NCBI GenBank assembly: GCA_963920705.1
Contig: CAWUCO010000001.1
Coordinates: forward strand, 248,001 to 312,000
Direction: 5' to 3'
DNA: 64,000 nt
From: Odiellus spinosus
Taxonomy: Eukaryota; Arthropoda; Arachnida; Opiliones; Phalangiidae
The position numbers and the translations under genes are program-made. Positions 16,162-41,980 of this stretch are shown here, piece after piece (the first letter of the stretch is position 1; each line of letters opens with the position of its first letter). The notes beneath the pieces were generated by a model. That model worked only from the letters and a program-made list of their open reading frames with translations. It searched no databases and was not told the DNA's origin.

Positions 16162-16631
16162 ACGAATTTGGCCATGCGCGAAACCAGCTAAGTACCAAAA
16201 AAAGGGTCAACTTCAGAATTAATTTTAAAATACTTAGACTTAATATTTTTAAATGAAACTTGAAAAGTTCAACATTCGAACCTTGCTCTACCACTTAAAA
16301 GTTATTATAACTGTAACAAATAATTCCTCTTTTAGTTCTGCGATGCACGGGACATGTCATCGAAAGAGTCGATTTTAATGTTATTTCATGGGGAAATGGA
16401 GCGTTCTGATTGGCTAAAGGTCCATTTTTTTAAGGAAATCAAAATAGCATTACAGATGATGATCAGCCCATAACGTAAGAACCCTACCGGGTTCTACGAA
16501 TAAGTAAAATTTAAACCTAAAAGCTTGGTTTTATTATTTTATTGATTTTCTTCGAATTGTAAATAAGTGAAAACCGCGAACTGGTTCGTTCTTTGATAAA
16601 AGGTACGGCAAATGATCGTTTTTGGTGAGTT
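16162..16631. other. Right edge of the 4.2-kb insertion and rejoined unit sequence
   Basis: The insertion absent from unit 3 ends near 16498 (small hairpin AGAACCCTACCGGGTTCT). From about 16499 the sequence again matches 45560-45700 up to GGTGAGTT at 16631, where the LINE starts. No gene. Confidence 0.5.
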
Positions 16632-16840
16632 ATAATAATGTTTATTGAACGAGAATAGAAAGTGACATTCACTTATTGTGCCCCGTATCAGTTTCAGAAA
16701 GACAAAGTAAAATACAGAAAAAAAACAAACAGTATGGTCAAATAATCAGAAAAAAAGAAATACAAATCAAAATAAACACGTAAGAGAAATATAATAAAAT
16801 AAATAATAAAAGAAAAACAAAAATAAACACCAAAATAAAA

Positions 16841-19619: not shown

Positions 19620-19742
19620 AAGTTTACTAATCAGGGATTCAGTGTTGGCAACTAGAAAAGTTATGCAAGGCTCATCAGGAACAATAGTTCTATTTACAGG
19701 GTTACTATTTACACAATAATCGAAACTGGCGGGGCAAACACG

Positions 19743-20978
19743 TCAATGGTCCGTGGAAGTGTGTAGCACGTTCACATCACCACCGGTATGGGAATCCGTA
19801 GGTCGGGATGGAGAACGACCGGCGTCCTGTCCCCGACGCTGCAAAGACAGCCGGACAGCGGCGCGCTCAGAGACCGTACGATCCTGTGAAAGTCGAGCCT
19901 TCTTCAAGGGGTGACCCGCTGGCAGTGAATTCATTCTCAGACCCCTTGCCGCTTCGAGAAGTGTCATTTTACCGACACAATCCGGGATTGAGAACCGTAC
20001 AGGTCGGACACGGCCTGGGGCGTATTTGCCCAACCGCACAATCGTGAAGAAACGCGGCAGAGGGGAGGGCAGGTGCAACACTTCCGTAAACAATGTTACC
20101 AAAGCCTGTGTGTCCGCGTCACGCCTGGCTTGGGGTGAGGAATCCTCTGACTCTGGGATATTAAAGGCCAACACGTTTGAGGCGCGATTTAGCCTATCAG
20201 CTTGTTCCTCGAAATGACCTGTCATTTCCTTGCGTAACTTCGGGATTTCTTTGATTTCCACCTCCAGTTGCTCCAATCGACCGACATGTTCAAGAAACTG
20301 TGACTCACACTTGACCGCTTGTGTCTCCAACCGCTGCTGCAGGTCTGAGATCTTCGCCGAAGATTCCTGGAACCGGAGGGGTAAATCTAAAATCTCCTTG
20401 GAGAGCGGCGCAGCATTTTTACCCGCAGGAGCCTTAACCATTTCTAGCATCGATAGGCGTGTTTTTATTTCCTGCAATTCCAGCGATTCCTTCAAGCGAA
20501 GCTCAAACAGAGGATTGCATTGCCTACAAAACCACTTAATCTGTCTATTTTGACGTATAAGCTGAAGCTCCCCGGGAGCCAGATCCGAGCAGTCCGCATG
20601 CCACCATTGCGAACACTCCTCGCACTTTAAAGCCGACGATTCTTCCAGGGAAGAATCACATTCACTGCACAATGTAGTAACAGGATCAATAACGTCAGCT
20701 TCAATATCCGGGGGATAAGAGACCCGAAGCTGGTCCGTTGCTCCAACATCAAGGCAGCAAGCGGCAGAAGACTTAAACTGTTCCTGGGAACCTGCCTTGG
20801 ATTGCCTGGTGAGGCGCTGGCTGAGCTGAGGGCTCGAATTTCCCATCCCACAGGAAACAGATATATTTAACCCCTTTGAATTTCCCGCTGTCTTCGAAGT
20901 GGTGTTAGCCTGCGACTGACTCGCCATCTTCTGGCTGAGCTTCGTTTGCAATGTCTTTAAAACCGGTTTACTCGACAT
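19743..20978 (-). CDS. LINE ORF1 protein with PHD finger
   Basis: 411 codons, intact from ATG at 20978. Order: a Ser/Gln-rich leader (1-95); a PHD-type zinc finger at about 102-152 with the C4HC3 pattern (LCSECD, CEECSQWWHADC, WFCRQC); a long charged coiled-coil segment (about 160-255); then a domain with VLAFNIPES and a VRLGK-like stretch, the form of the RNA-binding domain found in LINE ORF1 proteins. ORF1 proteins coat the element RNA; a PHD finger in ORF1 is known in some CR1-group elements and may contact chromatin. The stop is 124 nt upstream of the recognised start of ORF2. Confidence 0.8.
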   Translation of the reverse strand: MSSKPVLKTLQTKLSQKMASQSQANTTSKTAGNSKGLNISVSCGMGNSSPQLSQRLTRQSKAGSQEQFKSSAACCLDVGATDQLRVSYPPDIEADVIDPVTTLCSECDSSLEESSALKCEECSQWWHADCSDLAPGELQLIRQNRQIKWFCRQCNPLFELRLKESLELQEIKTRLSMLEMVKAPAGKNAAPLSKEILDLPLRFQESSAKISDLQQRLETQAVKCESQFLEHVGRLEQLEVEIKEIPKLRKEMTGHFEEQADRLNRASNVLAFNIPESEDSSPQARRDADTQALVTLFTEVLHLPSPLPRFFTIVRLGKYAPGRVRPVRFSIPDCVGKMTLLEAARGLRMNSLPAGHPLKKARLSQDRTVSERAAVRLSLQRRGQDAGRSPSRPTDSHTGGDVNVLHTSTDH

Positions 20979-21588
20979 CTCTCAGATGGAGAGTGAGAGA
21001 GGGAAAAAAAAAAAAAAAAAAAAAAAACAACGAGGCCTGTAGCAACGCCTGGGGGATTACCCGCGGTAACGAAGTTAGAAACCAGTTCAGGCGAACCCTT
21101 TAGCGAGAGGGGGGTTTGGCAAATTCCGAGAATCCGATACTAAAATAAATGGCTACCTTTGCTGGCGAAGTGGCGTTGAAATGCCGGACCGCGTTTGCCT
21201 CTCTGTAATGTAGGAAGGGACGCCGTAATACCGAAACGCGTAAACAAACTTTACGTCCTCCAGACACGTAAACCGACCAGAAAATTTCGAAAACTCACCG
21301 AGGCTGAGACTATATATTCACAAAACATTTGGAACATAATCTGTACTGACAACTAATATAATTATTCAAAAACATCACGCAGGAGAAGACACAGAAAAAA
21401 TGCGACTGACTCGGTCTCTCTCCCAATTGAATAGTAGTAGTCCATTGACTACCCCCGAAATTAATTATTTTTGTAAGATAGTAATTTTAGTAATGCCATT
21501 TTTAATGTTTATTGAACAATACAACTCTTTTTTATATTCGTGCGGATACAAGATTAGTTACATATGTTTTTTTAAGAGTTTATAAGAC

Positions 21589-22680: not shown

Positions 22681-22692
22681 GTTTCGCCCAAA

Positions 22693-22973
22693 CAAGGAGG
22701 ATCAGAGAAGGAGAGGAAATGTGGGGCTGCGTTGAGTTAGAGAGAGAAGAGCCAACCTCCCACTCGGGTGGAAAGGGGGGATAGGAAATTCTCGAGGTAA
22801 ACTGTTGTCACGTGGTCACTAGCTAGCGCGTCTCATAAAGGATTCGTTTTACCCACGCGACAACATTTTACCACGAAACGTCTCTACCCCCGTTCTCCCA
22901 GAGTGGGAGTTTAGGCCGACGCAGTAGGAACCGCGCCGTCCCCACATTTCCTCTCCTTCTCTGATCCTCCTTG
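22693..22973. mobile_element. MITE A, 281 bp, inserted in the P-element terminus
   Basis: TIR of 34 bp, identical by eye: left CAAGGAGGATCAGAGAAGGA..., right its complement. GCCCAAA is duplicated at 22686-22692 and 22974-22980. Those 7 bases are GCC of the host target plus CAAA of the P-element end, so the MITE landed across the host/P junction and is younger than the P insertion. G+C is higher than in the surroundings; no ORF. Confidence 0.88.
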
Positions 22974-22980
22974 GCCCAAA

Positions 22981-23460
22981 GACTATCTAACGCTACGCTT
23001 ACTAGACAGGCGTGCTAACGTTAAAAAACTGTTAACGCTTTTAGTGCAGCGCCATCTGCTTTTTGGTTCATGATTTTTCCACAGACTATTTTTTATACTT
23101 TGTAGTACTTAAAGTAGTCCTTGTTATTTATTTTATTGGCGAAACTTTCAAACGGAGTTTTTATTTTTAAATTTAGAGGCAGCTCACTACCATGATAAAA
23201 TTTATCAAATGCTTTAAAGAAAAACTAATAGGTGTGTTACGTTTGTATAAAATGATTTAAAAAGACCAAATTAACTAACAATCGAGAAGCGACTGATCCA
23301 TCATTATCTATAATTAGAATCTTTAACAAAAAAAAAGCATGACAAATCTATCCCACTAAATTTAAACGCATTTGATTCAAAGTTTTAGACATTTTTACCA
23401 AGTTATTGGAATCATACTAATAGAAAATTCTACTTTCATCTTCAGCATATTATTTCGTAA
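22981..23460. other. Left subterminal region of the P element
   Basis: Rest of the TIR (to about 23016), then non-coding A+T-rich DNA. A CAGCGCC phrase at about 23045 has an inverted counterpart near 38320 and could be a subterminal transposase site, which is speculative. Confidence 0.35.
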
Positions 23461-23469
23461 GAGTTTAAC

Positions 23470-24040
23470 ATTAAAAATACGGAATTTTAAAACTGAAAAC
23501 ACACTTAATCGTAGAATTTTTATTATAATAAACCACCGAAGCTGAAATCAAACTTTAACCTAGAACGCGCTTTTTTCTTATAACAATTTCATATTGATTA
23601 ATCCATTGTTAATTAAAAAGACTTATATCCACCTGAAATCAAACTTAATTCTTGGAATTGATTCTAAAATACCACCATCTTAAATTAATTTATTTCATCT
23701 AACGTTATATTAAAGCTAAGGATTTATAAAACTAAAATCACACCTAATCCTAGAAAGTTTATTCTAAATTAAAAATACCACCATTTCTTAATGAGATTCA
23801 TCCGATGTAAGAGAGATCATATCAACCTGAAATTAAACTTACACCTAGAACGTTCATTTAGTACAATCATTTCTTTGAGATTGTTCCATTGCTAATTAGA
23901 CTGATTTGTCAAACTGAAACCACACGTAATCCTTCAAATTTTATTGTAAAATACAAAAATTTCTTAATGAGATTCATCAAACATAAATCTAAAGAAGAAT
24001 TTATCTTCATGAAATCAAACTTTTCAAATGATCAATTATT
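23470..24040. repeat. Degenerate tandem repeat, about 90-100 bp period
   Basis: Variants of CTGAAATCAAACTTAATCCTAGAA occur near 23485, 23542, 23633, 23734, 23829, 23915 and 24009, often with ACCACCATTTCTTAATGAGATTCATC between them. Strongly diverged. Non-coding. Confidence 0.5.
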
Positions 24041-24534
24041 TATAAACGTGATATCCTGCCAAAAAAACATTTCTAAGACGGTGATAAGCCTCTGCCTATA
24101 GTTTATTAAAGAGAATACGTTAGAACAAATCCAAGGGTAAAATTATTATTGTTACGACTTTAGAAGCGGTAGGAATTTATTTTGGAACACTCCCTTTTAG
24201 GAATCAGGAAAAAAATGTTACATAAAATAGGTTTAAATTTGCACTTGGAATTAAAGCAACTGGTTGAATTTTCAGTGATGATCCCATCGTGAAAGAATCG
24301 TGCCACGTTATTAATTTGGTACTAACAGCGACCTCTTGATATTCTGCTGAAATCAACGAAGCAATTTTCCTCATCCTTCTAATAATGGTATGGAAATATT
24401 GCGAAACTTCAGGTTGAAATTGACCTGGATAAATTTATATTTGTTTTAGTATTAAAACTTTTAATTACCGAAAGACTTCATTAAACGAAGCTAGAAGAAT
24501 AGAGAACGTACCCGATTAAAAATCTCTTCGAGAA

Positions 24535-24723
24535 TTAATGAGCAATGAAATTAAATGGATTCTTCATGCAAATTAAAGAATCGTGCCACATTTTAGTATT
24601 AAGTAGTAGTTTCTTTTGATTTCGGAGGTCTAGAGGTACAGTCAATTTATAACTTGGTTTTGCAGTAGGAACTTCGGGTATGGAAGGTGAATCTAATTCG
24701 CTGTTACTAGCCGAGGGTAACAA
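24535..24723 (-). pseudogene. Duplicated piece of the P-transposase 3' region
   Basis: The frame contains VPTAKPSYKLTV followed by a segment from TTTCGGAGGTCTAGAGGT; the same DNA phrase with VPTKPSDKLTV occurs at about 25560-25650, the 3' end of the transposase gene. This is a diverged partial duplicate within the P element, roughly 1 kb further downstream. Confidence 0.45.
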
Positions 24724-25531
24724 TCTACTAACTCTAATAGTTATTTGTTTCGCTCCTAGGAGTAAACATTGCTGAAGTATTGGAACATGAAAACCCTATA
24801 ACAAATACTTTATAGGTAAATGAAAAGTCTAAAATATTCTTAAACACGGTACCTTTAAGTTCATAATGGCCATCAGGATCTTCGTAAGTTTATTTGGATA
24901 GAAGCGAGGCGCGTGCTTTCAAAGAGGTTCCACTATTGAAACATCGGAAACTGCAGCTCTCAACTGCTTCAATAGATTGACTAAATCAATATACCTGAAA
25001 TTTTGAACAAATTAGGTTACTATATGGTAAAGTTAGGTCTTGAAAATTTCTTTAAATATTTCTGCACCTTTTATGAATAGACGGTTCTAAAAGATCTAAT
25101 AGTTTCTCAATATCTTCTAAGGGAAGCTGTTGCTGGTTAGGATCCCTGGCAATTTCGTTCAAGAGCACCTGCAATCTCAATATCTAACCCATCACAGAGT
25201 TGTATAATCTTCGACACGCTGATAATAGACTTTGAGTGGTATATTTCGAGAAACAGAAGATACTAGAAATAAAACTGGTTTCAATATGAGATGGTCTTAG
25301 AATGGTCTAACCTCCTTCACTCACAATGTATGTTGATGAGAAAATAAATCTAAAGCGATTGGTGTGCTAGTATCTAAGACTAACAAATGAAAGAGAAGGT
25401 CGGATTCTTGTAACGGTTCCAATTCTGGTGTTCGAGTCCATCTAATGTCAGAATATCACTTAAATCACGATCAATATTAATTTTTGACAAATCTTTTACC
25501 CTTTTGATTGTTGGCTGCGGCTTGTCATTAG
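24724..25531. other. 3' flank of the transposase gene inside the P element
   Basis: A+T-rich. Short acidic or Leu-rich frames on the minus strand suggest decayed coding sequence continuing the transposase C terminus, but none is long enough to support. No other element seen. Confidence 0.3.
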
Positions 25532-26600
25532 TTAACAACTCATATGTTGCACCCTCATTAACTTTTTAAATTTCGGAGGTCTAGAGGTTACAGTCAATTT
25601 ATCACTTGGCTTTGTAGGAACTTGATTGGAAATTGGTGGAACTTCATTGGGACTTTGTTTCGAGCAGTAATCTTTTTTAGCATTTGACACTGCTATTTCT
25701 TTTTCCTTCGGTAAATTCTTTGCTTTGGCAACTTTAGCTTTTTGTTCTTTCTCATCGGCTATACCAGCATTTAAAATTTTTACTGCATAATACAATCTCA
25801 TTCTACAATACAGTTTCAAAAGTTTTTTCAGGAACCCTTCACAAACATCATTGCAAGAAATATTTGCTCTGCATTCTACGATGCAACTTTCCAGAATGTT
25901 TGGTAAATTCATACTTTGGTTGAATACTTTGAGGAATATTTTCTCGCACTGCAACATTGAGCGAACTACTGCATCGGAAGGAGCAATTAGCCCCGGGCCC
26001 AAAGTCTCCCTTATCATGAGTATATGCTTTTAGATGTATAAATATCTGACTATCACACTCCATAGATTCAGATTCTGTTATGAAAGTGCAAATTTCGTGA
26101 GAGTTGCAGTCATGATTTCCCTTCACTTTGCGCATAGAGCTCCCAATTATATATTCAAGACAATTCAAATCGATTTTGTTTCCAAATTCTTTGACCATGG
26201 TTTCAACTTCCGAAATTTTTATTGCTGCCTTCTTGGGATTACTCCGATTATCATCATCTGTTACGATAGGTTGCTTCGATAACTTATCTTTTTTGCTTAG
26301 TTCCATAGATAAAGTTTTTAAGGAGAAAAGAGTTTCATTTGCATCAGTATCGCAATTTTGATTGTCACAACTTGTATATAGAGTCATCATTACAACTTGT
26401 TTGAAGCCATTTTTAAATTGGGTAGGAGTTGGGTTTGAGCTGTTTCCTCTCCTTTGAGATATTGTTGCAAACAGGTTTTCTAGTGGATCTTGGTTAAGTC
26501 TTCTTGTGAAGAAAAACTTGAACCCTTCATTTTTCAAATCTTCCCATAAACCTAATATTGCCGTTATAGATTGTATCCACCCATCCACGCGGTAAATTTT
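25532..26600 (-). pseudogene. P-transposase C-terminal part, frameshifted
   Basis: VDGWIQSITAILGLWEDL and RRLNQDPLENLFATISQRRG carry the family's third acidic residue (the Glu of NQDPLE) and the following Arg/Gly stretch. The frame runs to about 25987 (THDKGDFGPG), then shifts to GPGLIAPSDAVVRSMLQCEK, the usual end of P/THAP9 proteins, and on through a Lys/Glu-rich tail to a stop at 25532. Both halves are recognisable, so one indel separates them. Confidence 0.75.
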
Positions 26601-26673
26601 GACACGCTTAGGAACATCAAATTCTAGTTCTTCTGTAAGGCTTCAACAAGTCCCGATCCTTCTTTGAATGGTC

Positions 26674-27947
26674 TTAGAAGTTTCTTGGAGCTTGTAAATT
26701 TGCTGCATCAAATGCCTCGTTGACAATACCTATGAACTCTGCAGTTGCGCTAGCTTGAGCTTCCAACTCACCAAAAGAAATGTACGTAGACATTCCTACT
26801 GCCACTGAATGGCTAAAAAGTTGCGCGGCTAATTTCACCCTCATCTTTTCATAATTATTTGGGTTTAATGTTTTAGTTAATAGCTTTGGAGCAAGTCTTA
26901 TTTCTCTTTTACTGTCTTTTTTAAAAAACTCGTCCACATAATGAAATAACGATCTTTTACCTTGGTATTTTATAACGTACTTTCTGAAGTTATTTCTCAA
27001 ACTCTTAAGAAGATGGGGGTAGTCATACACGCAGTAAATTTTTTTGTTATTTAGGTAAATGAAGGGTTCAGTTTTCGTCACGTTTAGCTTCTTATAGACA
27101 CCTCTATTTGTTCCACCTTGATCGCGGACAATGCTTCTTACATTCAACCCAATTTTACCTAATTTATTTACGCATTCAATTAGGAAGCTTTTCAAAAATT
27201 CGGTGTTAGTTGTTCCTTTAGCAAGAACATATCCCACTGGTTGCTTATATTGTTTAAAAAGGCCATGGACCATTACGACAAGAGCTTCATTTCCAAGTAC
27301 GCATTGTTTACCAACATCACCGTAGTCCACAAAACCTTCTATCGTATCTTTGGCTGGGTCATAGGAAAGGCCTTCAGCTAACGACGTTTCGTCTACAGTC
27401 AAAATACAATTTCGATCTTTACTTTTCATTTTTTTAACCTTTTTTTGTAGAGCCTCAAATATGAAAGAGTTTAATCCAGGATCAAGGTTGATAGTTGAGA
27501 GCCAGTCACGTAGGGTTCGACTGTGGGGTAGCTTGAATATTTTTCTAAGAAGTTTATAACATTTTGGACTTTGGTAATGTATCGAGAGTGCAATTTTCTT
27601 ATCATTCTCACTCCATCGTCTGCCTTTACGTTTCGCACATGATTGTCTTAACTGAGTGGCAAAAAACATCTGCTGCTGGTCCGATAATAGGTCTTTGCTA
27701 TATGTTAAAATTGTCTTTATTTTCTCCTTCTTGGAATGGGCAAGAACTGTTTTTAAAGTAGATATTCTTCTTTTGTAACGGCTAATCACCGAGGACTTGA
27801 CTCTTAATTTCTTTTTTAACAAAGCTTTTCCTGGCGTATTAGGTGTTTTCTTTTTGTTGGTTAATCCTACTAATACTATTACTGGTGTTTCAGTTGTTTT
27901 ATTTTTCTTGGTTGGTGCTACAGGTACATTTAATGTAGAGATACATT
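26674..27947 (-). CDS. P-transposase catalytic core, 5' part of exon 6
   Basis: Starts after TTTTCAG at 27947. A basic Pro/Thr-rich linker leads to a Lys-rich coiled coil (about 27822-27700), then an HTH-like RTLRDWLSTINLDPG, then the RNase H-like core: ILTVDETSLAEG (first Asp), SIVRDQGGTNRGVY (second Asp), YCVYDYPHLLKSLRNNF (a P/THAP9 signature, the GTP-binding/insertion region). The frame breaks at 26674 (APRNF*), and the homologous sequence resumes in another frame (LRPFKEGSGLVEAL). Confidence 0.85.
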
Positions 27948-28216
27948 CTGAAAATACGAAGAGCCAAGGTAAATTCTCTCTACCGATATTGCTGTTTTAC
28001 TGACTTCTAAATGACTGCTATTTTAAAAACCTACAACCATATACAGAATGGAGATATCAAGCGTTCTTTGCGACTTGATTTATCTTTAAAACTCTATCCA
28101 ATGAAATTATTTTACCTGAAGTTTCTTGACCTTCCATTTGGCTTCTAAACATCTGAATCAACGAGATTTGGTTATGCTAAATAAAGAAATTAATTAGAAG
28201 TTATATAATAAAAGTA

Positions 28217-28788
28217 AAGGGAGGGTGAAGTGGAAAATCAAGTGATGTTTCATCGATTCTTTATCTAAAAATAAGACCTGTTTGCGTATTAAAACATTCG
28301 GAAAATATCTCTGGACTTTTTAAAAATCAAAATAGGTGCCAATTTTACCATAACATTCAAATATTCGAAACACCCGCCTCCGACCAATCACAGCAGGCGT
28401 AATGTAGTGTTTAACGAAGAGTAAGCAACGGTAAAGCCAGGTTTCACATTGCGTATGGCTCCGGGTTAGCCTTTACTCCATTGATATTCTCGGCTGATGA
28501 TTGGCTGTCAACCAAAAACGCCAATGGAGTAAAGGCTAACGCGGAGCGATACGCAATGTTAAACCTGGCTTTACCATTACTTACTCTTCGTTAAACACTA
28601 CATTGCGCCTGCTGTGATTGGTCGGAGGTGGGTGTTTCGAATATTTGAATTTTATGTTAAAATCGGCACCTATTTTGATTTTTTAAAAAGTCCAGAGATA
28701 TTTCCCGAATGTTTTAATAAGCAAACAGGTCTTATTTTTAGATAAAGAATCAAAAAACATCACTTGATTTTCCACTTCACCCTCCCTT
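28217..28788. mobile_element. 572-bp full-length palindrome MITE in transposase intron 4
   Basis: The two halves are inverted copies almost end to end. Outer ends AAGGGAGGGTGAAGTGGAAA and its complement; inner arms include CCGACCAATCACAGCAGGCG / CGCCTGCTGTGATTGGTCGG and GTAAAGCCAGGTTT. TA flanks both sides (28215-28216 and 28789-28790), as for Tc1/mariner. It lies wholly within the intron between exons 4 and 5, about 17 bp and 40 bp from the splice sites. No ORF. Confidence 0.82.
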
Positions 28789-29149
28789 TAATAGATTTAT
28801 TTTACCTTCTCTGTTTGAAAACTTGGATCATTATGGTAAGCCTCCAGGTAAGCAAATATTGACGGATCAATGAATTTAGGACAGAACGTTCCTCTTGAGA
28901 TATTAAGAGCTTATTTTCTTCAGTACTATTTGAAGGTTCTAAATAAATTTAAAGACAAGATTAGATTATGCGATTGAAACTTTGAAAATCCTTCACACAC
29001 TACTATCACCTATTTTATCTGGAGAAACTAGATTTTTCCGGTATTCTGCTAGCCTACGTCTTCTTATAAATAGCTCAGGTTCAATTTTGCTGGCTTTTCG
29101 TTTAGATGATCTTCTAGGAGTAGTTTTCAACCCGCTGATTTTTACCTCT

Positions 29150-29344
29150 CCGAGTGAACTTTAGTTCACGGAGAGGTTCTGTCCTGATCGTGTGTGTGTG
29201 TGTGTCCGTCGTTCGCGGTGTTCGCAATTACGTCATCGCAAGAAAATTCTATTCTAGTTCACCACTCTTCTCATAGGTGGCGGTACAATTTCCAAATTCT
29301 CTCGGACTTGTCTTCGAGCGCCACCCAACCGGCAGATAAGGGCC
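29150..29344. other. Hairpin plus (TG)n 5' of a LINE fragment
   Basis: CTCTCCGAGTGAAC / GTTCACGGAGAG form a stem at 29152-29180, followed by a (TG)n run near 29192-29210. A related arrangement (hairpin ACCTCCCC...GGGGAGGT followed by (TG)n on the minus strand) lies at 37455-37540. Both may be the 5' part of the same repeat family. The insertion abuts exon 3 of the transposase gene and has replaced the expected pyrimidine tract of its acceptor. Confidence 0.4.
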
Positions 29345-29920
29345 GTGTTCGATTATATCGATAGGCCGGAACATCGTACGCAATGGAGCAGACGTACAAA
29401 TCGCCTGTACAAGAAGTTCCACGTTCGGGCAAACCTAGCGGCACACCCTACCCAGGCAAAATGGCGCCAAAAGGTGTGGGAGGATGTAGCCGAAACAAAC
29501 GAAGAAAGATGGCGGCGGGACGTGGCGAAGAAAGGGAGCCTCGTCACCTACGCCGAGAAAAAGAAACCAGGAAAAGAGGCTTTCTATGACAATAGCCGCG
29601 GTAGCTGCCTCCTGTTCCAGGCCCGCACCGGGGCCCTACCGACGGCGGCGCGAGAAAACCAAATTATCGGAGGAGACCCCAGGTGTAAACTGTGCCAGGC
29701 GCCGGAGGAGACAATCCGACATATTCTCCTCGAATGTCCGGCGCTGGCTTCGGAACGCGCCATGATATCGCTCCAGGAGTCTGACCCAGCGACTCCCGAC
29801 TATCTGCGTTGGCTCGGACTAGCCACCGACCAAACGTCGAGACCGATCCTCGACGGTACGAAGCGTCTACTAGACCAATGGTGGGCATTGAGAAAACCCA
29901 CAAAACGCGCTACGTGGTAG
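29345..29920 (+). pseudogene. C-terminal fragment of a second LINE type
   Basis: A 191-codon frame ends in a CCHC-type motif, CKLCQAPEETIRHILLEC (C-x2-C-x8-H-x4-C), with the flanking CLLFQARTGALPT and LLDQWWALRK. This arrangement is typical of the region after the RT and RNase H domains in R1/LOA/I-type non-LTR elements. Nothing upstream encodes RT, so it is 5' truncated. G+C is far above the surroundings. The 3' end is a CTGAA microsatellite at 30009-30042. It sits in intron 2 of the P transposase. Confidence 0.72.
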
Positions 29921-30008
29921 TGCATTATTTTATTTTATCCACTGTGCCCCTAGTCTATCTAGTGAGCCTCCCTGATCCAAAAGGGACCTAACATTGGGAG
30001 TGGAAACC

Positions 30009-30042
30009 GAACTGAACTGAACTGAACTGAACTAAACTGAAA
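30009..30042 (+). repeat. (CTGAA)n tail of the LINE fragment
   Basis: About six CTGAA/CTAAA repeats directly downstream of the 3' UTR. Simple-repeat tails replace poly(A) in several non-LTR clades. Confidence 0.65.
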
Positions 30043-30061
30043 TTTCCTATTTAAATAAAAC

Positions 30062-30160
30062 ATCTCACAGGTGGTCTCCCACTTAGTTACTGTCCGCGCT
30101 CGACGCTGCTCCGCTTTAGAGATAGCCATGCGAACGCTCTAACGACTTTGCTATAAGCAC
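30062..30160 (-). ncRNA. 5S rRNA-like sequence (pseudogene or SINE3 head)
   Basis: Reading the minus strand, AGCAGCGTCGAGCGCGG then AGTAACTAAGTGGGAGACCA and CCTGTGAGATG parallel the 3' half of 5S rRNA (AGCAGCGTCGGGCGCGG, then AGTACTTGGATGGGAGACC, then GCCTGGGAA), including the internal promoter boxes. The 5' half (GCAAAGTCGTTAGAGCGTTC) is only weakly similar. It is most likely a 5S-derived SINE head or a decayed 5S copy, not a working 5S gene. A tRNA-derived SINE is the alternative. Confidence 0.48.
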
Positions 30161-30240
30161 TTGAAAGAATCTTATATAAAAACCTCTTAAATCTGGAAGG
30201 GGTGCACTACGGAAGCCAGGCCGTGTTATAGTAGCGTCGA

Positions 30241-30442
30241 GCAAAATGGCGCCAAAAGGTGTGGGAGGATGTAGCCGAAACAAACGAAGAAAGATGGCGG
30301 CGGGACGTGGCGAAGAAAGGGAGCCTCGTCACCTACGCCGAGAAAAAGAAACCAGGAAAGGAGGCTTTCTATGACAATAGCCGCGGTAGCTGCCTCCTGT
30401 TCCAGGCCCGCACCGGGGCCCTACCGACGGCGGCGCGAGAAA
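30241..30442 (+). repeat. 202-bp copy of the interior of the LINE fragment
   Basis: Duplicates 29456-29657 with one difference found by eye (AGGAAAAGAGG against AGGAAAGGAGG). It starts and ends abruptly inside the coding region, with no tail of its own, 580 bp downstream of the fragment's end. A recent templated duplication, not a second LINE insertion. Confidence 0.85.
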
Positions 30443-31829
30443 TGTATCCAATTAAATAAAAAATTTAAAAGCTTATTACTCGTAATTTACATTATAAAAT
30501 AAAATATTACTAGTCTTAAACGATCATAATATAATATTCAAATTTAATTATATTTATTAAATGAATTTGACGTTAACTTTTTGTCACAGGTGACGCTAGA
30601 TTAGTAGGAAGTAGGACTACAGCAGTATAACGAAATAAAGGCGTACGGTTTTTTTAAAAACTTTAATTATGCTTGATTTAAATTCTATAATAATTAGTTT
30701 TAGTCCTCTCTCAAAAAATAATATTTAAATTTAATTTTATTTTGTAAATTAACTTTCTATCTGTAGGCATGGAATAATTAGTAGCTTATGCTGTAGGTGA
30801 CACTAGTTTCCCTCGAACTCGGCTTAAAGCTTACCTTAATACCTTTCAGTCAAGGAAGGTCAAACTCATTTAGTCATTTTCTATAATTTGTTTAATCACA
30901 TCATTCTCTTTAATTCAGTCTTAGGTTTAAATTAATTAATAATAAATAATCTAGAAATTCAGTTGTGTTTATTCTTGTAAAATCCATTTCAACTACAATT
31001 TGTTTAATCATAGTTAATTTGATTCTATCATCATTACGTTTAATTTAGTCCTATAGCTTGAAAATAATTTAATTATGGTTTTATTGTTTTACTTTTGGTT
31101 AGAATAATTTTAATTTAAGATAAACTTCAACTATTATGTATCTGTAAAATAACAGAGACTCGAAAATTAAGGTAGTGGTATGGCGCGTCCGTGCTTGCAC
31201 GGAGCATGGGGTCTCTTCGTAGAATATTCGACTCTTTCGAGAGAGTGAAAATAAAACTAAACATGACCATGTAAATGAATACGTCGCTCTCGGGACGCTC
31301 CTATTTTTAATTGTCATTAGAATTTGACTAGTTATTTTAATTCGATTTTTTCGAATCATTTACGCTTAATAAAATAGTATTAGTCTTCTTCTATCAAAAT
31401 ATCATATTTTAATTTAATTTTATTTTGTAAATAAATATGATGTAAACGTTCTACCAACAGGTGACACTAGTTTCATCGTGTAAACAGTGTAGCGGCAAAA
31501 GTAACCTTATAGCAAGAAGTGTGCCACTCCTCTTTCTTATTTTAACCCAAAAATTATAAAATAAATTTTTAACATCGTCTACCTGTTTTCATTAGTTTTC
31601 TTGTTTAGCATTGTTATTTTAATACAATTTTTTCGTATCAATTATGCTTAATAAAACAGTATTAGTCTACTGCTATCATAATATCATATTTAAATTTCAT
31701 TTTATTTTGTAAATAAATATGCTGTAACTTTCTACCAGCTGGCGGCATAAGTAACCTTATAGCAAGAAGTGTGCCACTCCTATTTCTTATTTTATATATA
31801 TATATTTTAATTGTAAGGTAAGATTGTAC
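30443..31829. repeat. Degenerate A+T-rich tandem repeats
   Basis: No gene. Four imperfect copies of a unit containing ATAATATCATATTTAAATTT, TTTTATTTTGTAAAT and a GGTGACACTAG-like end fall near 30530, 30715, 31400 and 31680. GCAAGAAGTGTGCCACTCCT occurs twice (31513, 31759). About 31554-31605 duplicates the 3' edge of transposase exon 2 with its splice donor (about 32237-32285). Confidence 0.5.
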
Positions 31830-31919
31830 TTTGAGTGGGATCAGCTGTAACAGGCGTAATTCACCGCCTATCTACCGGAAACTATTTTATAGTATATATC
31901 AGACCTTGACGACTTCCGG

Positions 31920-31950
<31 letters not shown>

Positions 31951-32044
31951 GAATTTTTTTTTTTTTTTTTTTTTTTCAGTTTTTTTACATGGCTTTGGTT
32001 AGCTTGGGTTGGGTTAGGTTAGGTTAGGTTAGGCCCCACCAATG

Positions 32045-32076
<32 letters not shown>

Positions 32077-32225
32077 AAAATGAAAAAAACCTAACAAATA
32101 ATAATTATGTTTATATTTTTTTTTGGTTTCCGGAAGTCGTCAAGGTCTGACATATACTATAAAAATAGTTTCCGGTAGATAGGAGGTGAATTACGCCTCT
32201 TATGGCTGATCCCACTCAAAGTATA
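31830..32225. repeat. Palindrome of 95-bp arms around poly(A/T) and (TTAGG)4
   Basis: The arms start ACTTTGAGTGGGATCAG and end CTTGACGACTTCCGGAA (left 31830-31922, right 32131-32225 inverted, about 90% alike). The centre is A and T runs of over 20 flanking GGGTTGGGTTAGG and four perfect TTAGG units at 32014-32033. Non-coding, inside intron 2 of the P transposase. Confidence 0.75.
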
Positions 32226-32264
32226 ATCATACCAATTATAAAATTAATTTTTAACATCGACTAC

Positions 32265-33254
32265 CTGGTTTCATTAGTTTTCTTGTTTACAATTAGACTT
32301 GGGACGAGGAGAGGTAATATTTTGGTTTCCCAACTTGTTGATATTCTCGGCGTTACTACCCTATTTGGTGTGGTAATAACTGGGGTTTCCACTGGTGCAA
32401 CTCTTAATCTTCTTGGTGTTGAACCTAACCTTTTTGGAATGGAAATCTCCGGAGTTCTTGATGTATTACCTTGGGCATCACGTTTTGCTGCTCGTGATTT
32501 TTGTACCGGAGTTACGGGGCTGGGAAGTATTTCCACTTCAGCCTCAAAAATAGTTGGAACAGCTTTTTTGATTAGTCGCTTCTTTAGAGGGTTCATAAAC
32601 TGTCCAAGTTCAAAATGGTCCGAGCAAATCCCGCGATTTTTGTATAACACTGCCGGGCTCAGTCCGTAGAGCTTGCTATTTCCACAATTTAAAACCCATT
32701 GTTGGCATCTAAAATTTATATTACCTCAATTATATGGGTGAATTTAAAAAATTTTGCAATCGCTCAGCGGAAAAGAAATTTAAACCAAAAATATTTAAAC
32801 GCGTATCTGTGTATAATAAAGGTATCTTTCAAAACAAAATTAACTTGCCATGAATTTGAATAGGCTTTAAGAACGCTGGTTGGTATGATTTTCCTCATTT
32901 CTATTATAGTACAAATCCGGGCACTTAGGCTTATAACTAGGCATAGTGGTCACCTTTTTATGGTACGAATTGGCGTTAACAACGCTGGTTGGTATGATGT
33001 TAGTAATTTCTCCTTGATCTTTTTATAGTACGAATCTGGGCACTTTTGCTTATAACTAGGCATAGTGGTCACCTTCATATGGTATAAATAATAACAATAT
33101 AATATGCAAACTTTTGGATCCAGCAAACAATATATAAAAAAACATACCTTTCAGGTTCTTTCGGAAAACGAAAAAAAGAAAAACTAGACAACGGTCCTTG
33201 CTTGTTAGCGCAACTTGGTCCTGCACAACGGTGCACTCCATCTTTGGGAGGCAT
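32265..33254 (-). CDS. THAP zinc-finger exons of the P transposase
   Basis: Exon 1 begins MPPKDGVHRCAGPSCANK and ends FRFPKEPE before GTATGT; exon 2 continues RCQQWVLNCGNSK and GICSDHF, and then AVPTIF. This gives a complete C2CH THAP domain: C-x4-C in exon 1, Trp in exon 2, C-x2-H, and the AVPTIF box. Residues after the finger are basic and Pro/Thr-rich. The reading frame is intact through both exons (551 nt). If exon 2 were not spliced at CAG|GTAGTC (32265) it would stop after NETR. A frame overlapping exon 1 at 33298-33056 is a shadow. Confidence 0.85.
32870..33080. repeat. Two-copy tandem duplication, about 120 bp, in THAP intron 1
   Basis: AACGCTGGTTGGTATGAT, GGGCACTT, GCTTATAACTAGGCATAGTG and GTCACCTT occur twice in the same order, the copies starting near 32873 and 32990. 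The intron was lengthened by this duplication. Confidence 0.65.
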
Positions 33255-33317
33255 CTCCTTTGATCTTCAATTATAAAAATTAATATAAGGAAAATCAAGT
33301 TATCATAAAATTTATAT

Positions 33318-33660
33318 TTCTCAAACTCAGAAGTAATTATCTACGCTTCAATTGTTTCAGATGAGGGTAGCTCGTGGATATATATTCCCAAAGTGTGGAT
33401 TCAAATCAAGAGAGTAATGTAATCATTAATCAGGTACGGTTCTTTTTCTTCTAGATTGATTAACGTAAGACTACAGGTATTTAAATTTTTAATCCAGAAG
33501 CAAATATAATTAAGAAAGTTTTTTAAAAGCACGCAGCTTTAATTACGCGGTAGAATTAAAAACCGCGAACAAAAATACACGGTGAGACGACTAGTTTCGT
33601 GTCTTACAGGCAAATCAGGTCTGAATTCTATATTGCGATTTCATTTTCTACAATAACTTC
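33318..33660. repeat. Left arm of a 340-bp inverted repeat, upstream of the THAP start
   Basis: Matches 37550-37866 in opposite orientation, about 88% by eye (shared phrases CCCAAAGTGTGGATTCAAAT, ATTAATCAGGTACGGTT, TTGCGATTTCATT). It begins 64 bp upstream of the transposase ATG, so it would contain the promoter. The two arms are 3.9 kb apart inside the P element. Confidence 0.7.
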
Positions 33661-35332
33661 GTCACGTGACTCGAGGGGGGCGTGTATAGATTTTTTTAAA
33701 CCAAAGATCGATAATGAAGCTGGGCCGTCGTCACGATTAAGGGACTGATGTTCCAACGATTCGCGTACATTCAGTTTTATATAATGGTCAATCATCGCAA
33801 TATTTTGGACATTTAAAAAAATCAAACTTATGACTTTGATAATTGGCAGCATGTTCAGCCAAAGCTGAGGAGTAAATCGATTGGTGTACTTGGATTTGTT
33901 CTAAAATGATTTTGGACCTTATTACCACCCTAAAACTGAATGTACGCGAATCGATGGAAATAAGACAAGTTGGGAAACCAAAATAATACCTCCCCGACAA
34001 CCACGTGATGTTAACTAACCTAACCTTACCTAAAATATTAAAATTTATGGCATTTGTGGAAGACGAAGATTGAAAGCAAAAAGAAATAATATCTCAATTA
34101 AACACTAAATATATTAAACCAATAATTCAGATCAAAAATATACTTCTTATCAAGATAAATTTGAATGCAAAAGAATCAAACTTAATTCAAAATAAAATTT
34201 TGAGAACCAGAGTCGGAAAAAAATTTGCTGAATAATGAATTAATTTTAATATAAATGCGTATCGAGTAAAATAAGCAAGGTCAAGGTTCTTCTTTTAAAA
34301 CCATATAATAATTTTGAAGGCTCTAGAGTTTTTGCAGACCAAGTAACGCCAATAGGCAAAATATTATATCACATTGAACCTATAAGCATTTCTTCAGTAT
34401 ACCAACACAACCCTCAATAATTCTCTACTTAAAACCAAACCTAACTAGAGAAAAAAAGGAAAATAAATAAGATATAACCACATAGATTTCAAGATAAATA
34501 ATCCAGTCCATAATTCAGTATTAAAACAAAAAAGTCAGAATTAAGACAACTGAAATTAGCAACCTTTGGTAATATGTAAAATAGCCCTTACACGAACAAT
34601 TTAAGTAAAGCAAATTATCAAATAAACGCCAAATAAGTCAATTAATTAAAATGAAAAATATTAATCTTACCACTACCAAATAGCGGGCAGAAAACACAGA
34701 CATCAAGATAACATTAGCAAAATAAATTTTCAACACCGGTAATCCTGAGAACTAGGTTCTACAAAATCTTCCTGAATAATAAATTTATTTTAATCTTAAA
34801 AAAATAAAATCTTAAAAAAATATATATACAAATAACATATTGATAAACCAATTAAAATTAGATGCGAAAAACATTTAATCTCGATATGAGATTAAATACA
34901 CAAGGTCAAGGTTCTTCTTTTAAAACCATTTCAGAATTTTGACGGTTGTAGAGTATTTGTAGACCAAGTAACGTGAAAAGGCAAAATGTTATATCACATT
35001 GAACCTATACATGGCTTCAGTATACAACACAACCCTAATAAACCTATCAATAAACAACTAACGCATTGGCTTTCCGTATATCAGGTTAAACTAAAAATTA
35101 CGATGTAAAATTTCGCTTATTTGCGCTACTCGGTCTACATATACTCTACTTGTCTGTACAGAAAGTTTTAAGTAACCTTTTTTTAAGTTAACCTTCTTTG
35201 TGGATTAAGGCTGTGAGTGAAGAATAAAATATATTCTTTTAAGGCAGGACAGATCAGAGTAAAATTACACCAAGTTGGGAAACAACGTCATATGACGACA
35301 AACTAACTAGAATATTTTTCAAAATATTTAAG
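33661..35332. other. Non-coding interior of the P element with a direct repeat
   Basis: About 34280-34430 and 34900-35040 are direct repeats (CAAGGTCAAGGTTCTTCTTT, GACCAAGTAACG, ATATCACATTGAACCTATA). An exon-2-like phrase, CAAGTTGGGAAACCAAAATA, recurs at 33967. Otherwise A+T-rich with no gene. Confidence 0.45.
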
Positions 35333-35639
35333 GCCTGGTTCTTCGCGCGACTTTCGTCGATTTGCCGGAAATGGGCGCTTGTCTCATAGCCGCGCCGCCA
35401 TCTTTTTGCAGTAACAGGTTGCCAGACTATTTCTAATTTTATTTCCCACAAACCAAATTCAAGTTGTTAGTCCAACACCTCCGATATGATAAAATATAGG
35501 AGGCGTTGGTTAGTCTGTCGCTATATTCACACTACAAAAAGATGGCGGACGATCACGTGACAAAAGTTTTCCCCGCCAAAATTTTCGCGAGGGTCTCTAG
35601 ACTTCCGGTTTTGGAAATCGACCAGGACTATACTGCAAA
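35333..35639. mobile_element. Second copy of the AGTCCTGG MITE, left end damaged
   Basis: The body is nearly identical to 54664-54944 (GCCGCCATCTTTTTG, TAGGAGGCGTTGG, GACTTCCGGTTTTGGAAATC), and it ends GACCAGGACT at 35639. The left end reads GGCCTGGTTC... with extra bases before CGATTTGCCGG, so one TIR is disrupted. It lies inside the P element. Confidence 0.75.
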
Positions 35640-36480
35640 TCCAGCGCTTCTCCTGACACACGCGAAATTTAAACCCTCGCGCGAGTTTCAAGCATATTTG
35701 ATTTTTCGAACAACTTCAATGTGCATCCGCTTATAGAATTTTTGCAACTTGTCGAGTGTAAACCGGCTCGATCTTTTCGCGGGATCACAGTTGCGAAGTT
35801 TGTACAACTTAAAGCAAGTTCGCAAATTGAACAAGTACTCTAGTGAACTAATTGCAGACCGGAAGTGTGTGGCGGCTTATTGAACTTGCCTACCTTAATT
35901 ACCGTATAGCCTATCCTAGTAGTAGGAATGGGGCTGCTATTGAGTAGTTGTCCATTTATTAAAGTCTGGGTCTATACTCTATAGCACATCCTAGTCGCGG
36001 GACTCAAATACATTTATAAATAAAGTAGAGATTAGGATTTTAAGTATAATTGAGCACTTGGTGTAGGATGTCCAACTTGATCGTATTTTTTTCCCTATTG
36101 TAAAGTCATACTTGCCTTACAGTCTAAGAATTGCGAATCAAGTCGCCGAAAAATAGGTACTTGCAAAGGGTTCTTGCAAGAAGTACGTGCCTTATTTAAA
36201 CACACTACTCAAAATATGTGATAATAGGTGCGTTTTACCACCGCCTTAGCAACCAGGAGCCGTTGCCGAATCAATGAGGCAACACCGCTAGCGTGAAAGC
36301 CTAACGTGAACCTCTCCTCGCCCTACACAAGGTTATCATTGAGTGGGAAAAATGATAATCTCGCTTATTTATACCCCGAGAAGCGATGCTTATACAAAGT
36401 TAAAAAATATATCAAGTCTACTTTTTAACCAAAAATAGATAAAAAACAAAAGTATACAAATTGGTCTATAATGTTATTTA
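35640..36480. other. Non-coding DNA in the P element
   Basis: No gene, array or clear inverted repeat seen; the small ORFs are unsupported. Confidence 0.3.
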
Positions 36481-36490
36481 AATTCTTCAA

Positions 36491-36770
36491 TCCACCCCGA
36501 GTTTGCAGAAAGCCAAAACCTATACTGCCCGTTATACCTCGGCTTTTTTTACTAAATGATATATGGAAAATAGCTTAGCGCTTGCTGTCAACTCAAGCTG
36601 GTATTAGTATAGAAATTGGCTTAAATTTTTCAATCCACCCCGAGTTTGCAGCAAGCCTAAGCCTATACGGCCCTTTATACCTTTGCTATTTTAACTAAAT
36701 GATATATGGAAAATAGCTTAGCGCGTGCTGTCAACTCAAGCTGCTATTAAACGGTCAAATATTTAGAGAA
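36491..36770. repeat. 143-bp tandem duplication, two copies
   Basis: TCCACCCCGAGTTTGCAG at 36491 and 36634 and GATATATGGAAAATAGCTTA in each copy fix a period of 143 bp. Copies differ at several sites. Non-coding. Confidence 0.75.
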
Positions 36771-36969
36771 TTTCTTAAATATCTTCAAAACTATCGCCAA
36801 TTTAAAATTTAATTTTCAGCTACATTATTAATAAGATTAAGAGACATAATTATAATATTTTGAATTATATTTTAAATTAATATTATGTTTCAATTCACTA
36901 AAAGATATCACGCCATAATGCTACAATGTACTATACTTCCAAAGAGACTATATAAGCGAATCGAATGCC

Positions 36970-37335
36970 ATTATACAGTATCCGATTGTGATAAGATCTT
37001 GTGGAGATCCCACCTTATCAATGCTCAGACGTTTGTCGTAACCCTGAGTGCTCACGTGTCGGCCAATTTACCCTTGGGGGGCGATGTTTGGAGAGTGGAG
37101 GGTCGATGTGGACCATATTAGTGAGGGACGCCTCGCTAGTATGGCCCGCTGACATCCGACACTAGTGGTTGGACCTTGGTGCGTGATGGTCGGAGGTGAT
37201 TATAACAGTGGGAGACGTCCCATTGCGTATAATCGCCTTCAACTGTCCAGCATCGAGGTTTGACCGTAAAGTGGATGGTGGAAGGTGATAATATGCAATT
37301 GGAGACGTCCTGTTGCATATCATTGCACGACACTT
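36970..37335. repeat. Array of four imperfect hairpins
   Basis: Consecutive inverted repeats: about 36981-37025 (GATAAG... / CTTATC), 37094-37150 (CCATATTAGTGAGG / CCTCGCTAGTATGG), 37190-37236 (GGTGATTATAAC / GCGTATAATCGCC) and 37282-37332 (GATAATATGCAA / TTGCATATCATT). Three share a GGAGACGTCC- or GGAGATCCC-like apex. G+C is higher than in the neighbours. Non-coding; inside the P element. Confidence 0.62.
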
Positions 37336-37549
37336 GAAACTTAATGTTGCAGCCACGCTTAAAGGAGGTAATTCCCGTTAAACGGAATTGAACGATAAGC
37401 TGGTATGATAATGTCTCTAGACTTTTGGCTCTACGAGCTAGGTCACGTGATATCCGCGTACACAGGATATCCGGTTACACAGGAAGTGACACACACACAC
37501 ACAGCCACGACCAGTGTAAAACCTCCCCAGTCGGGGAGGTAAAAAACCT

Positions 37550-37866
37550 GTAAATTATTGTAGAGAATGAAATCGCAATCTAGCCTGATGTGCCTGTAAG
37601 ACACATTTTTGTTCGCGTTTTAATTCTATCGCGTAAACTTTGTTGATTATATTTGCTTATGTATTAAAAATTTAAATACCTGTAATCGTACGCTAACGAA
37701 TCTAGAAGAAAAACAACCGTACCTGATTAATGATTACGTTACTCTGTTGATTTGAATCCACACTTTGGGAACATATTTATATCCACAACCACAAGCTACC
37801 CTTATCTGAAACAAATGAAGCGTAGATAATTACTTATTACTACTGAGTTTGAGAAATATTTCCAAA
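37550..37866. repeat. Right arm of the 340-bp inverted repeat
   Basis: Inverted counterpart of 33318-33660. By symmetry the promoter-like DNA upstream of the THAP gene is repeated here pointing right, but no THAP exon follows at 37870 onward. Confidence 0.7.
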
Positions 37867-38400
37867 TAATCATTTACCTTAAGTTTCTGAGATTATCTGA
37901 GATAGATAAATAATTTATTAATTAGACAGTTTACGCATTAAATGGATATGAATTCTTTTAACATTGAAAGGAAAATTGAACAAAGACATCAAAAAATAAA
38001 AACAAAGACATTGTTAAGCCTTTGTTTAAGGCTTAACGGTATTTTAAAATACATTATGATTATTACGCGTAACTTACCCAGTCAAGTTTAAATAAATAAA
38101 TGAGCCTTATAAAATCAAACGAAACTTAAATAGAGCAGATTAGATAAAAATTGGTTAATTATTTGAAAACAACATTACGCGTCGCGACGCCCGACGGGCG
38201 CTGACAAGAAAAAGTCGTTAACAATGAATCATACCACGTGATATTTCCAAAGACTAAAAGCCTCCGACAAAAGTAGCGTTAAATAGTCTTTGCTTTGCAC
38301 TTGCTCCAGCTGGAAGGGGGCGCTGAAGTCTTGTAAAAGTTGTATGCAAGTAGCTCTATAGAGCACGCCTGTCTAGTAAGCGTAGCGTTAGGAAGTCTTT
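37867..38400. other. Right subterminal region and TIR of the P element
   Basis: A+T-rich DNA followed from about 38160 by a more G+C-rich stretch and the 40-bp terminal repeat (38362-38401). No gene seen. Confidence 0.45.
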
Positions 38401-38436
38401 GGTTTCGCCTTCACCTCATCACCGGCGGAACGGGAA

Positions 38437-39889: not shown

Positions 39890-41980
39890 TCAGTCTTGAA
39901 ATCCAATGTCACGTGTTGGCGATTCCTTCGAGAGATAAACTCCCAATTTATTCGCGATAATCTCAGAGAAGAGGGTTAGACAAGCGATTGTGATTCCGGA
40001 CAACCAAATCTGGAACATGATGGACAATTCGTCGATGGTCGTGACAGTGGCTGCGTTCATCTCAGTGCCGGCGTCCTTTGCCAACACTGATCTAATCTTT
40101 AGAAACCTTTGTAAGTCTCTCGGGCCGGATTGAACAGTTTCCACGTATCTAAGCGTCCTAAAAAGGAATTTGCAAAGAATATTAATGCAGTTATATAAAA
40201 AAATAAGTCTCTTTGCAAACTCTTGAGTGGAGGAAGCGAAACCCTCAAAAATGACTGTCTATAGCTCAAATGCTAGAGCCAATTAATTGGGATTAGAGTA
40301 CTCGTCTGCCACTATCGGCCTTATTCTCTCGATTTGCAAATTTTGAGGGAGCCATCTAGTTTCACTCTCGAGAAATCGGAATGTGACGAAGCTTCCGCCT
40401 CACTCGTAAAGAGTTTGAAAAGGCAAAGTAGCCAATGGGCGCTAGAGAAGACGGTTCCGTGTCTTAATTCATAAATTACGTAACGAGCCATTGATTGAAA
40501 AGTAGGAAATTGCCTTTATACGCTTATTGGCTTTATAATCAAGGTTGTTTTACGGATGTTTCTCTAGCGCGCATGAAAATAAAGTTAAAACATTAATTAC
40601 AAATAATTAATTTCCTTCAAAATTATTTTCGGTAATGAAGAATAAAACGTTCTAAACGCAAATTTTCCGAAATATAATTTTTGGCCCGCGTTTTTCATTT
40701 TCTTTCGGATAAGATTATCCGTTGGACTAATTTGACTCTTCAAATATTCGTCGTCAGATAATATGGCGTATTTCCCGGTGCCGTTTGGGAAAGAGTCAAA
40801 TAAATCGGAATTAAATTCTTCGAAGTAGAATGCTTCTTTGTATAGTTGATCCATTATTGGAGAATTTTTACTGAAGTGTTCAATGTAGGTTTTTAACGCA
40901 AGGTCAGTGTGAGAAATTGCCGGTCTCATTCCGGGATATTTCTTGATATCTTCGAGAGTGTTTATTCGAACCGCGTTGGACACCATCATCTTGCTCTTTA
41001 AGTTGCCCGTGTACGCTTTGATCAAGACTGACGTCCCCAGTAACCAACCGCTCAACATCAGTTTTGCCGAAAGTCGCCTCGGGAAAACATCCGCGGCTAA
41101 TTGTTCAAGATTGATTTTTATTCTTTAGATTACTTATTCTATTGTTTTTACTCGCAATGAGGCACTCAACCATCGCTGCGCTATAGAGATACGCCTCATT
41201 GGGGAAAAGTGACTTCTTGAGACGGGTGGGGCTACGCGTCATAATCGATGGAAAGATTTAGAATTCTATATAAAAGTTCTATCACTCTGACCGTCAATTA
41301 TTCGTAAAGCTGACTATCAAAACCACGTATTACCCTCCCTTCCAGAGATGGTGCTAGAATCAACACGCGGTTTGTCGACGTCATAGGTGGGATGGATAGA
41401 GGCGTATTATATCTATAGCGCATGCATCATGCGTTGTAAGATATCCTCACTCTATGGCGAGGTACTCAACGGTTCTGAAGCAGATGAGAAACGTAAAACC
41501 AGGCGTATTCCAAAAACGGGAAACGCTTTCCGATTGACGAACGAAGGAATCTCATTTTGAAAAGCCCGCAGACGAGGGATAATAACAGCACACTGACTAT
41601 GAGGGAAACCCAAATTGTGGACTCGATGCCTTCCAACGAAAATTTCTTTTCCGCGTAAATTCCATCACTTACGACAGTTATAATTCTTACCGTTACTGCT
41701 CTCGACGGAGGGGAAGTGTAAAATAATTTAGTATATTGTGTTTCATAACCATACATACACGAATCGCAGAACTGCAATGGAGGAAAAATTAACAACCCGA
41801 ATAACTCTAATTTAGCTATTAGATACTCCGAAACGTACATTTGCCACAACGCAATACGCTGAATATGCAGTTGCAGGAATCGTCATATTTTGTTTCCGCG
41901 CATAATCATCCACCACGACCTTGACATCATCCCATGGCACGATTGTGAGACTAAAGTGAAACACTCGTTTTTCAATGACT
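39890..41980 (-). CDS. Ionotropic receptor IR-2 (best-preserved copy, partial)
   Basis: Chemosensory-type ionotropic receptor. Exons: about 41979-41855 (RVFHFSLTIVPWDDVKVVVD), about 41849-41471 (FCDSC, pre-M1, M1 ESTIWVSLIVSVLLLSLVCG, then FLEYAWFYVSHLL), 41096-40601 (VFPRRLSAKLMLSGWLL, pore/M2 GTSVLIKAYTGNLKS, S2 with PGMRPAISHTD), 40157-39890 (M3 IDELSIMFQIWLSGITIACL, tail DIGFQD, stop). Intron phases match IR-1. The intron between the M1 and M2 exons is 374 bp against 70 bp in IR-1. The three channel exons have no stop or frameshift, but the join to the ligand-binding piece is unresolved, and no upstream exons or start codon are found in the unit. It may be a 3' gene fragment amplified with the unit. 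Confidence 0.72.

Follow-up and report, generated by a model that had tools for sequence, protein, structure and literature searches.

A long P-superfamily element carrying nested insertions in the genome of the arachnid Odiellus spinosus

Ends, target site and transposase

Within a 64,000-nucleotide stretch of the Odiellus spinosus genome (GenBank assembly GCA_963920705.1, contig CAWUCO010000001.1, positions 248,001 to 312,000; hereafter the window), we examined a 15.7-kb element that a first-pass annotation had assigned to the P superfamily. Its terminal inverted repeats (TIRs), its 8-bp target-site duplication and a transposase with THAP, RNase H and GTP-binding domains all agree with that assignment, and it is very likely that the element is a P-superfamily DNA transposon of the cut-and-paste type that arrived by one insertion into a unit of a tandem array and has been enlarged by nested inserts. 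The boundaries had been placed to the base, and they hold: on its plus strand the whole window has just two instances of the duplication GTTTCGCC, at 22681 and 38402, in both cases directly outside the terminal CAAA...TTTG. The features of the element are collected in Table 1.

The two TIRs are identical at 38 of 40 positions, the two mismatches counted at first pass, although the left one is contiguous only from 22977. A miniature inverted-repeat transposable element (MITE) sits 4 bp inside the original left TIR and splits it, with GCCCAAA on either side; because the MITE made this 7-bp duplication, a full TIR was restored behind it. In principle a transposase could still recognise the restored TIR, and the MITE would then be left behind. 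P elements have CA...TG ends as a rule, and all four two-ended copies of this family read CAAAG...CTTTG, the left terminus of the window copy being taken at 22977. A further motif resembling the TIR, some 110 bp inward from the right end, may be a binding site. Empty sites in two sister units, also part of the earlier proposal, were recovered as GTTTCGGC, with one mismatch each to the duplication and with continuous flanks that align on both sides at 82-90%. A third, GTTTTGGC, lies in a further unit on contig C280 near 680.88 kb and has two mismatches.

Table 1. Features of the element and its empty sites, in window coordinates.
Feature	Position	Strand	Remarks
Left 8-bp target-site duplication GTTTCGCC	22681-22688	+
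P-superfamily element, window copy (contig C9)	22689-38401		15,713 bp by 8-bp duplication
CAAA, first 4 bases of original left terminus	22689-22692	+	severed by MITE
281-bp MITE	22693-22973	.	34-bp perfect arms, CA...TG ends; flanked by 7-bp duplication GCCCAAA; missing from C280
Complete 40-bp left TIR	22977-23016	+
Native long non-coding left flank	23017-25531	.	long matches to 22977-23580 and 23580-25530 confined to family copies and one decayed relative on C3
Transposase C-terminal coding pieces	25532-26642	-	RNaseH_C, aligned catalytic Glu; frame broken
Transposase core, 440 open codons	26674-27996	-	helix-turn-helix (HTH), RNaseH_N, GTP-binding insertion domain
600-bp near-palindromic repeat	28204-28804	.	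between exon-2 remnant and core
3' remnant of transposase exon 2	28996-29142	-	joined to THAP exon in C4, C12, C2
TE-A, rolling-circle (Helentron/Helitron2)-like	29144-32337	-	splits exon 2; present in C280, absent from C4, C12, C2
Retroelement fragment (zf-RVT)	29301-30036	+	absent from C280
Second fragment, same retroelement	30249-30441	+	absent from C280
Transposase exon 2, 5' part, most of THAP	32338-32710	-	5' boundary approximate, acceptor not located
Transposase exon 1, THAP start	33148-33254	-	followed by GT donor
Small palindromic repeat, arms 33751-33779/33931-33959	33740-33964	.	outer limits approximate; in family backbone
TE-D, 3.6-kb element, TE-A-like ends	33966-37540	+	absent from C280
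Second TIR-like motif, ~110 bp inward of right end	38273-38292	-
40-bp right TIR	38362-38401	-
Right 8-bp target-site duplication GTTTCGCC	38402-38409	+
Empty site GTTTCGGC, sister unit	46509-46516	+
Empty site GTTTCGGC, second sister unit	60617-60624	+

The internal gene runs on the minus strand in several exons, and its reading as a THAP/P transposase is borne out by Pfam and by alignment to a solved P transposase. Matches to the Tnp_P_element HTH, the TNP-like RNaseH_N, the GTP-binding insertion domain, RNaseH_C and THAP all pass the Pfam cut-offs. PF21787, PF21788, PF21789 and PF12017, which together describe an RNase H core with a GTP-binding insertion domain, each exceed theirs, and THAP (PF05485) is matched over positions 1-87 of 87 at 62.8 bits (cut-off 23.9) when exons 1 and 2 are conceptually spliced, or at 33 bits by exon 2 alone. 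The solved Drosophila P transposase, 6p5a, aligns with E values of 1.3e-26 (core) and 5.2e-6, and is the sole distinct Protein Data Bank sequence matched by the core at E <=0.01. The Asp, Asp and Glu of the two transposase pieces align with the Asp, Asp and Glu of 6p5a, residues that have catalytic roles.

In none of the five gene-bearing copies found (C9, C280, C4, C12 and C2, named after their contigs) is the gene whole: each is interrupted, frame-broken or truncated or bears stops, and the window copy is presumably non-autonomous at present. Over 350 codons, pN/pS (nonsynonymous relative to synonymous differences) is 0.37 between the window copy and C12, 0.50 between the window copy and C2, and 0.11 between C12 and C2; resting on 19, 20 and 7 differences, respectively, these ratios are suggestive of past constraint on the transposase.

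Family copies and nested insertions

An inner-TIR 24-mer, sought with up to three mismatches across the 443-Mb genome, gave nine matches, all exact, and the reversed control gave none. These matches bound copies of 2,852 bp (C1), 6,821 bp (C4), 10,927 bp (C280) and 15.7 kb (C9, the window copy) and include one solo end in C12, whose right end was not found, including in the stretch fetched beyond. A lack of paired TIRs elsewhere had been named at first pass as an outcome that would undo the proposal; they are paired at two other sites, in C1 and C4, and on C280. The duplication is exact in C1 (TCTTGTAC) and at the site shared by C9 and C280 (GTTTCGCC), it is offset by one base in C4, and C12, C2 and C7 are single-ended. 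Longer queries added a right end in C2, a left end lacking 16 bp in C7, a fragment in C10 and a decayed relative in C3 at 84-86% identity; the C2 and C7 ends had escaped the 24-mer, their inner TIRs having changed or lost part of their sequence. In C2 the right TIR near 24373943 is changed to ...GTACAAGTCTTTG and adjoins TCTTGTAC, as if filler had been copied, inverted, from the flanking target. That same 8-bp target is the one used by C1 at a different locus.

Subtracting the insertion TE-A from C280 gives a backbone of about 8.7 kb, and adding the missing internal stretches to C4 gives about 8.9 kb. Growth from the 8.7-kb backbone to 15.7 kb is therefore only about 1.8-fold, less than the several-fold increase first supposed. 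Nor does the classic 2.9 kb serve as a yardstick for full length here: the family's own 2.85-kb copy, C1, is an internal-deletion derivative that has no transposase core and, measured against C280, is missing about 8.2 kb. C4 is missing about 1.9 kb by the same comparison.

Non-coding DNA of the backbone amounts to about 2.5 kb left of the gene and 1.6 kb right of it, in keeping with the long flanks of its own that the first-pass annotation had described. The left-flank query 23580-25530 gave long matches to C9, C280, C12, C1 and C4, a match to the C3 relative at 84-86%, and three short, weak ones in C7 and C4. On the right, family copies match most of the query 33246-33964, and pieces of it recur elsewhere (about 290 bp at 69-72% in several places; 53 bp at 89-94% in many, often as inverted pairs), so the right flank contains at least one older dispersed repeat. 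The 53-bp part, dispersed through the genome, belongs to the small palindromic repeat.

Excluding gaps, aligned blocks of the family copies diverge by 0.5-3.0%, a comparison that omits the C7, C10 and C3 fragments and covers the right and middle blocks of C2 and the left and right blocks of C1; BLAST identities, which count gaps, are lower, mostly 91-98%. With divergence this low the element is not very old, and the great age first attributed to the window copy must be rejected. The same is seen in its inserts. The MITE is identical across 281 bp at at least seven loci, the window included (40 of 722 candidates scored), and the opening 300 bp of the insertion TE-D are identical at at least 19 loci, again including the window (40 of 748 scored); both therefore derive from recently active families. 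These copy numbers, like those of the palindromic repeat and the transposase matches below, are lower bounds, as only part of the candidates was scored. All 12 MITE copies fetched, that of the window among them, have 7-bp duplications of their own.

That the element grew by nested insertion stands. The MITE, TE-A, two retroelement fragments and TE-D all lie inside it. Exon 2 reads through in C4, C12 and C2 and is split by TE-A in the window copy and in C280, where TE-A measures 2,263 bp. TE-A and TE-D have common end motifs (CAAGTTGGGAAACC... together with a GGAGAGGT or GGGGAGGT stem), and both lie in A/T runs; from end structure and target only, we class them as Helentron/Helitron2-like. The 600-bp palindromic repeat occupies the same position in each of the five gene-bearing copies. 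These stand at four unrelated sites, and so the repeat has probably moved with the element; it has diverged relatives elsewhere (40 of 924 candidates scored). The expectation that intact relatives would lack the nested repeats was not borne out: no intact relative was found among the transposase candidates scored, and this repeat is common to the five gene-bearing copies found. In C2 and C12, TE-D-type rolling-circle-like DNA lies at one common position, some 190 bp inward of the right end, and the outer flanks differ. Each of these copies lacks one end, and so duplication or conversion might also account for the common insert. It is possible, if not quite probable, that the native length of this P family is near 8.7 kb and that its copies have carried other transposons as passengers.

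Two versions of the locus and the history of the element

On contig C280 the element occupies the same target; its flanks there are colinear from about 9.2 to 44.0 kb of the window, with matched pieces at 94-99% (matches below 92% or shorter than 150 bp were dropped). The two versions of the element differ by 0.4-0.8% in three aligned blocks, and the nearby flanks differ at 12 of 1238 and 16 of 967 positions. C280 lacks the MITE, both retroelement fragments and TE-D. We consider C280 most likely to be the other haplotype. A non-LTR (long terminal repeat) retroelement at 16627-21440, with a PHD finger, an endonuclease and a reverse transcriptase, is likewise present in the window and absent from the colinear part of C280.

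Alternatively, C280 could be a second genomic copy of the locus, arising from recent segmental duplication of the array, in which case the two sizes would be paralogous. The window is itself a tandem array of many similar units, and within the 73-kb stretch of C280 compared, matches above 92% end near 44 kb of the window. Against this, a single colinear match takes in the element and runs from one limit of the colinear region to the other at 94-99%, a level that the flanks of the sister units within the window, at 82-90%, do not reach. We regard the duplication as unlikely, though worth keeping in view beside the haplotype reading.

It is very improbable that 15.7 kb is the native length and that the shorter copies derive from it by deletion. 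Internal-deletion derivatives do exist, C1 and C4 among them, but TE-A breaks up an exon that C4, C12 and C2 have in one piece, TE-D and the MITE are multi-copy at many loci, the latter with its own duplications, and C280 has the same site without either; these observations already contradicted the idea, and we reject it. That the element is an array unit with chance inverted repeats, or unrelated transposons joined by misassembly, has next to no probability: an array with many repeats is difficult to assemble, but C280 displays the same two junctions, which makes misassembly there unlikely, the TIR 24-mer has no control matches, and the sister units hold empty sites.

Several points weigh against a single insertion followed by nested growth. 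Each empty site has one or two bases that do not match the duplication. The flanks of C4 share the 9 bp CATTATCTT, and with the duplication offset by one base a clean 8-bp duplication is not found in every copy. An intact transposase copy was not found among the 96 of 287 candidates scored, so that autonomy of the 8.7-kb form is something we can only infer. C280 could be a segmental duplication instead of an allele. Finally, the order of the nested insertions relies on absence from C280, and inserts lost from that contig would look no different; for the MITE, gain is favoured over loss because it has a 7-bp duplication and the left TIR is intact in C280.

Taken as one insertion with later growth, the history would run as follows. 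The element would have entered one unit of a tandem gene array by cut-and-paste, duplicating 8 bp, with transposase supplied by another copy or by its own gene before that gene was broken. TE-A would have entered exon 2 first, when the C9 and C280 versions had not yet parted. Autonomy would have been lost later, and there would have been version-specific growth, in which the two retroelement fragments, TE-D and the MITE in the left TIR would have been added to the C9 version only.

The surrounding array, at 4.4-62.3 kb, consists of ionotropic-receptor-like genes (for example, on the minus strand, 6880-7404, 40597-41124 and 48748-49245). Their Lig_chan matches all fall below the curated cut-off, and many stretches are 74-90% alike between units. 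The window further contains a tandem repeat of about 16 copies of a 100-bp unit (13945-15555) and a DDE_Tnp_4 transposase fragment (51564-51992).

Relation to known P elements

The sections of the literature cited here usually describe P elements as compact, and that of Drosophila melanogaster as 2.9 kb with 31-bp TIRs (PMC7776569). By that account (PMC7776569), the present family resembles the Drosophila element in its 8-bp duplications, its internal-deletion derivatives and its THAP, RNase H and GTP-binding transposase, and differs in its backbone of about 8.7 kb, its 40-bp TIRs and its multi-kilobase non-coding flanks. Zebrafish Pdre2/THAP9, in the parts of the reports cited, likewise has 8-bp duplications, with full-length and deleted copies (PMC10983969, PMC7776569), and has 13-bp TIRs (PMC10983969), unlike the 40-bp TIRs here. 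Nor is there a comparable subterminal pair in the 600 bp from each end of our element, whose left and right subterminal regions have only A/T-rich 10-mers in common. When short inverted repeats were sought in the subterminal regions, nothing beyond such A/T-rich words came up, with eight overlapping matches in C1, five in C4 and four each in C280 and the window copy; the control, one base-shuffle of C1 alone, gave a mean of 1.8.

Galileo, also of the P superfamily, is similar in that its copies are large, vary in structure and show internal deletions, but the cited portion of its description gives TIRs from about 300 bp up to 1.2 kb, duplications of 7 bp and an average of 5.2 kb for nearly complete copies (PMC3573991), as against 40-bp TIRs and an 8-bp duplication here. 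Duplications of 7 bp, as in Galileo, are made by the nested MITE and by another P family of the same genome, at 7.17 Mb of C1 and 12.67 Mb of C8. Its two copies, about 3.78 kb with CGGTGCC ends, are 99.97% alike, and both have the 7-bp duplication. The genome holds at least 99 matches to the P-type transposase core, among them several multi-copy families with long open frames. A third P family is at least 5.1 kb long, its right end lying beyond the fetched stretch, and a relative at 53% identity, whose open frame spans 599 codons (29.51 Mb of C2), had no recognisable TIR pair within the 9.9 kb around it.

As for the inserts, TE-A and TE-D share with Helentron, HINE and Helitron2 elements, as characterised in the cited part of PMC4067079, a stem-loop near one end and insertion into A/T runs, an assignment made with no search for Rep/helicase.

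Titles and the openings of abstracts yielded no P element of such length, which is not proof of absence. The family is new within the P superfamily and low in copy number, and its backbone is unusually long beside those of Drosophila P, Pdre2 and Galileo; the large size is due to long non-coding ends and to nested, partly version-specific insertions. It is a useful annotated example and not a new kind of element. Its copies, from 2.85 to 15.7 kb and 0.5-3% diverged, lend themselves to base-by-base comparison, and a single site exists with and without recent inserts. This size series allows nested insertions to be ordered, and it raises the question of how much foreign DNA P-type transposition tolerates. 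If the copies do carry other transposons as passengers, P-type transposition would spread foreign mobile DNA, and the size of the element would differ between two versions of one locus.

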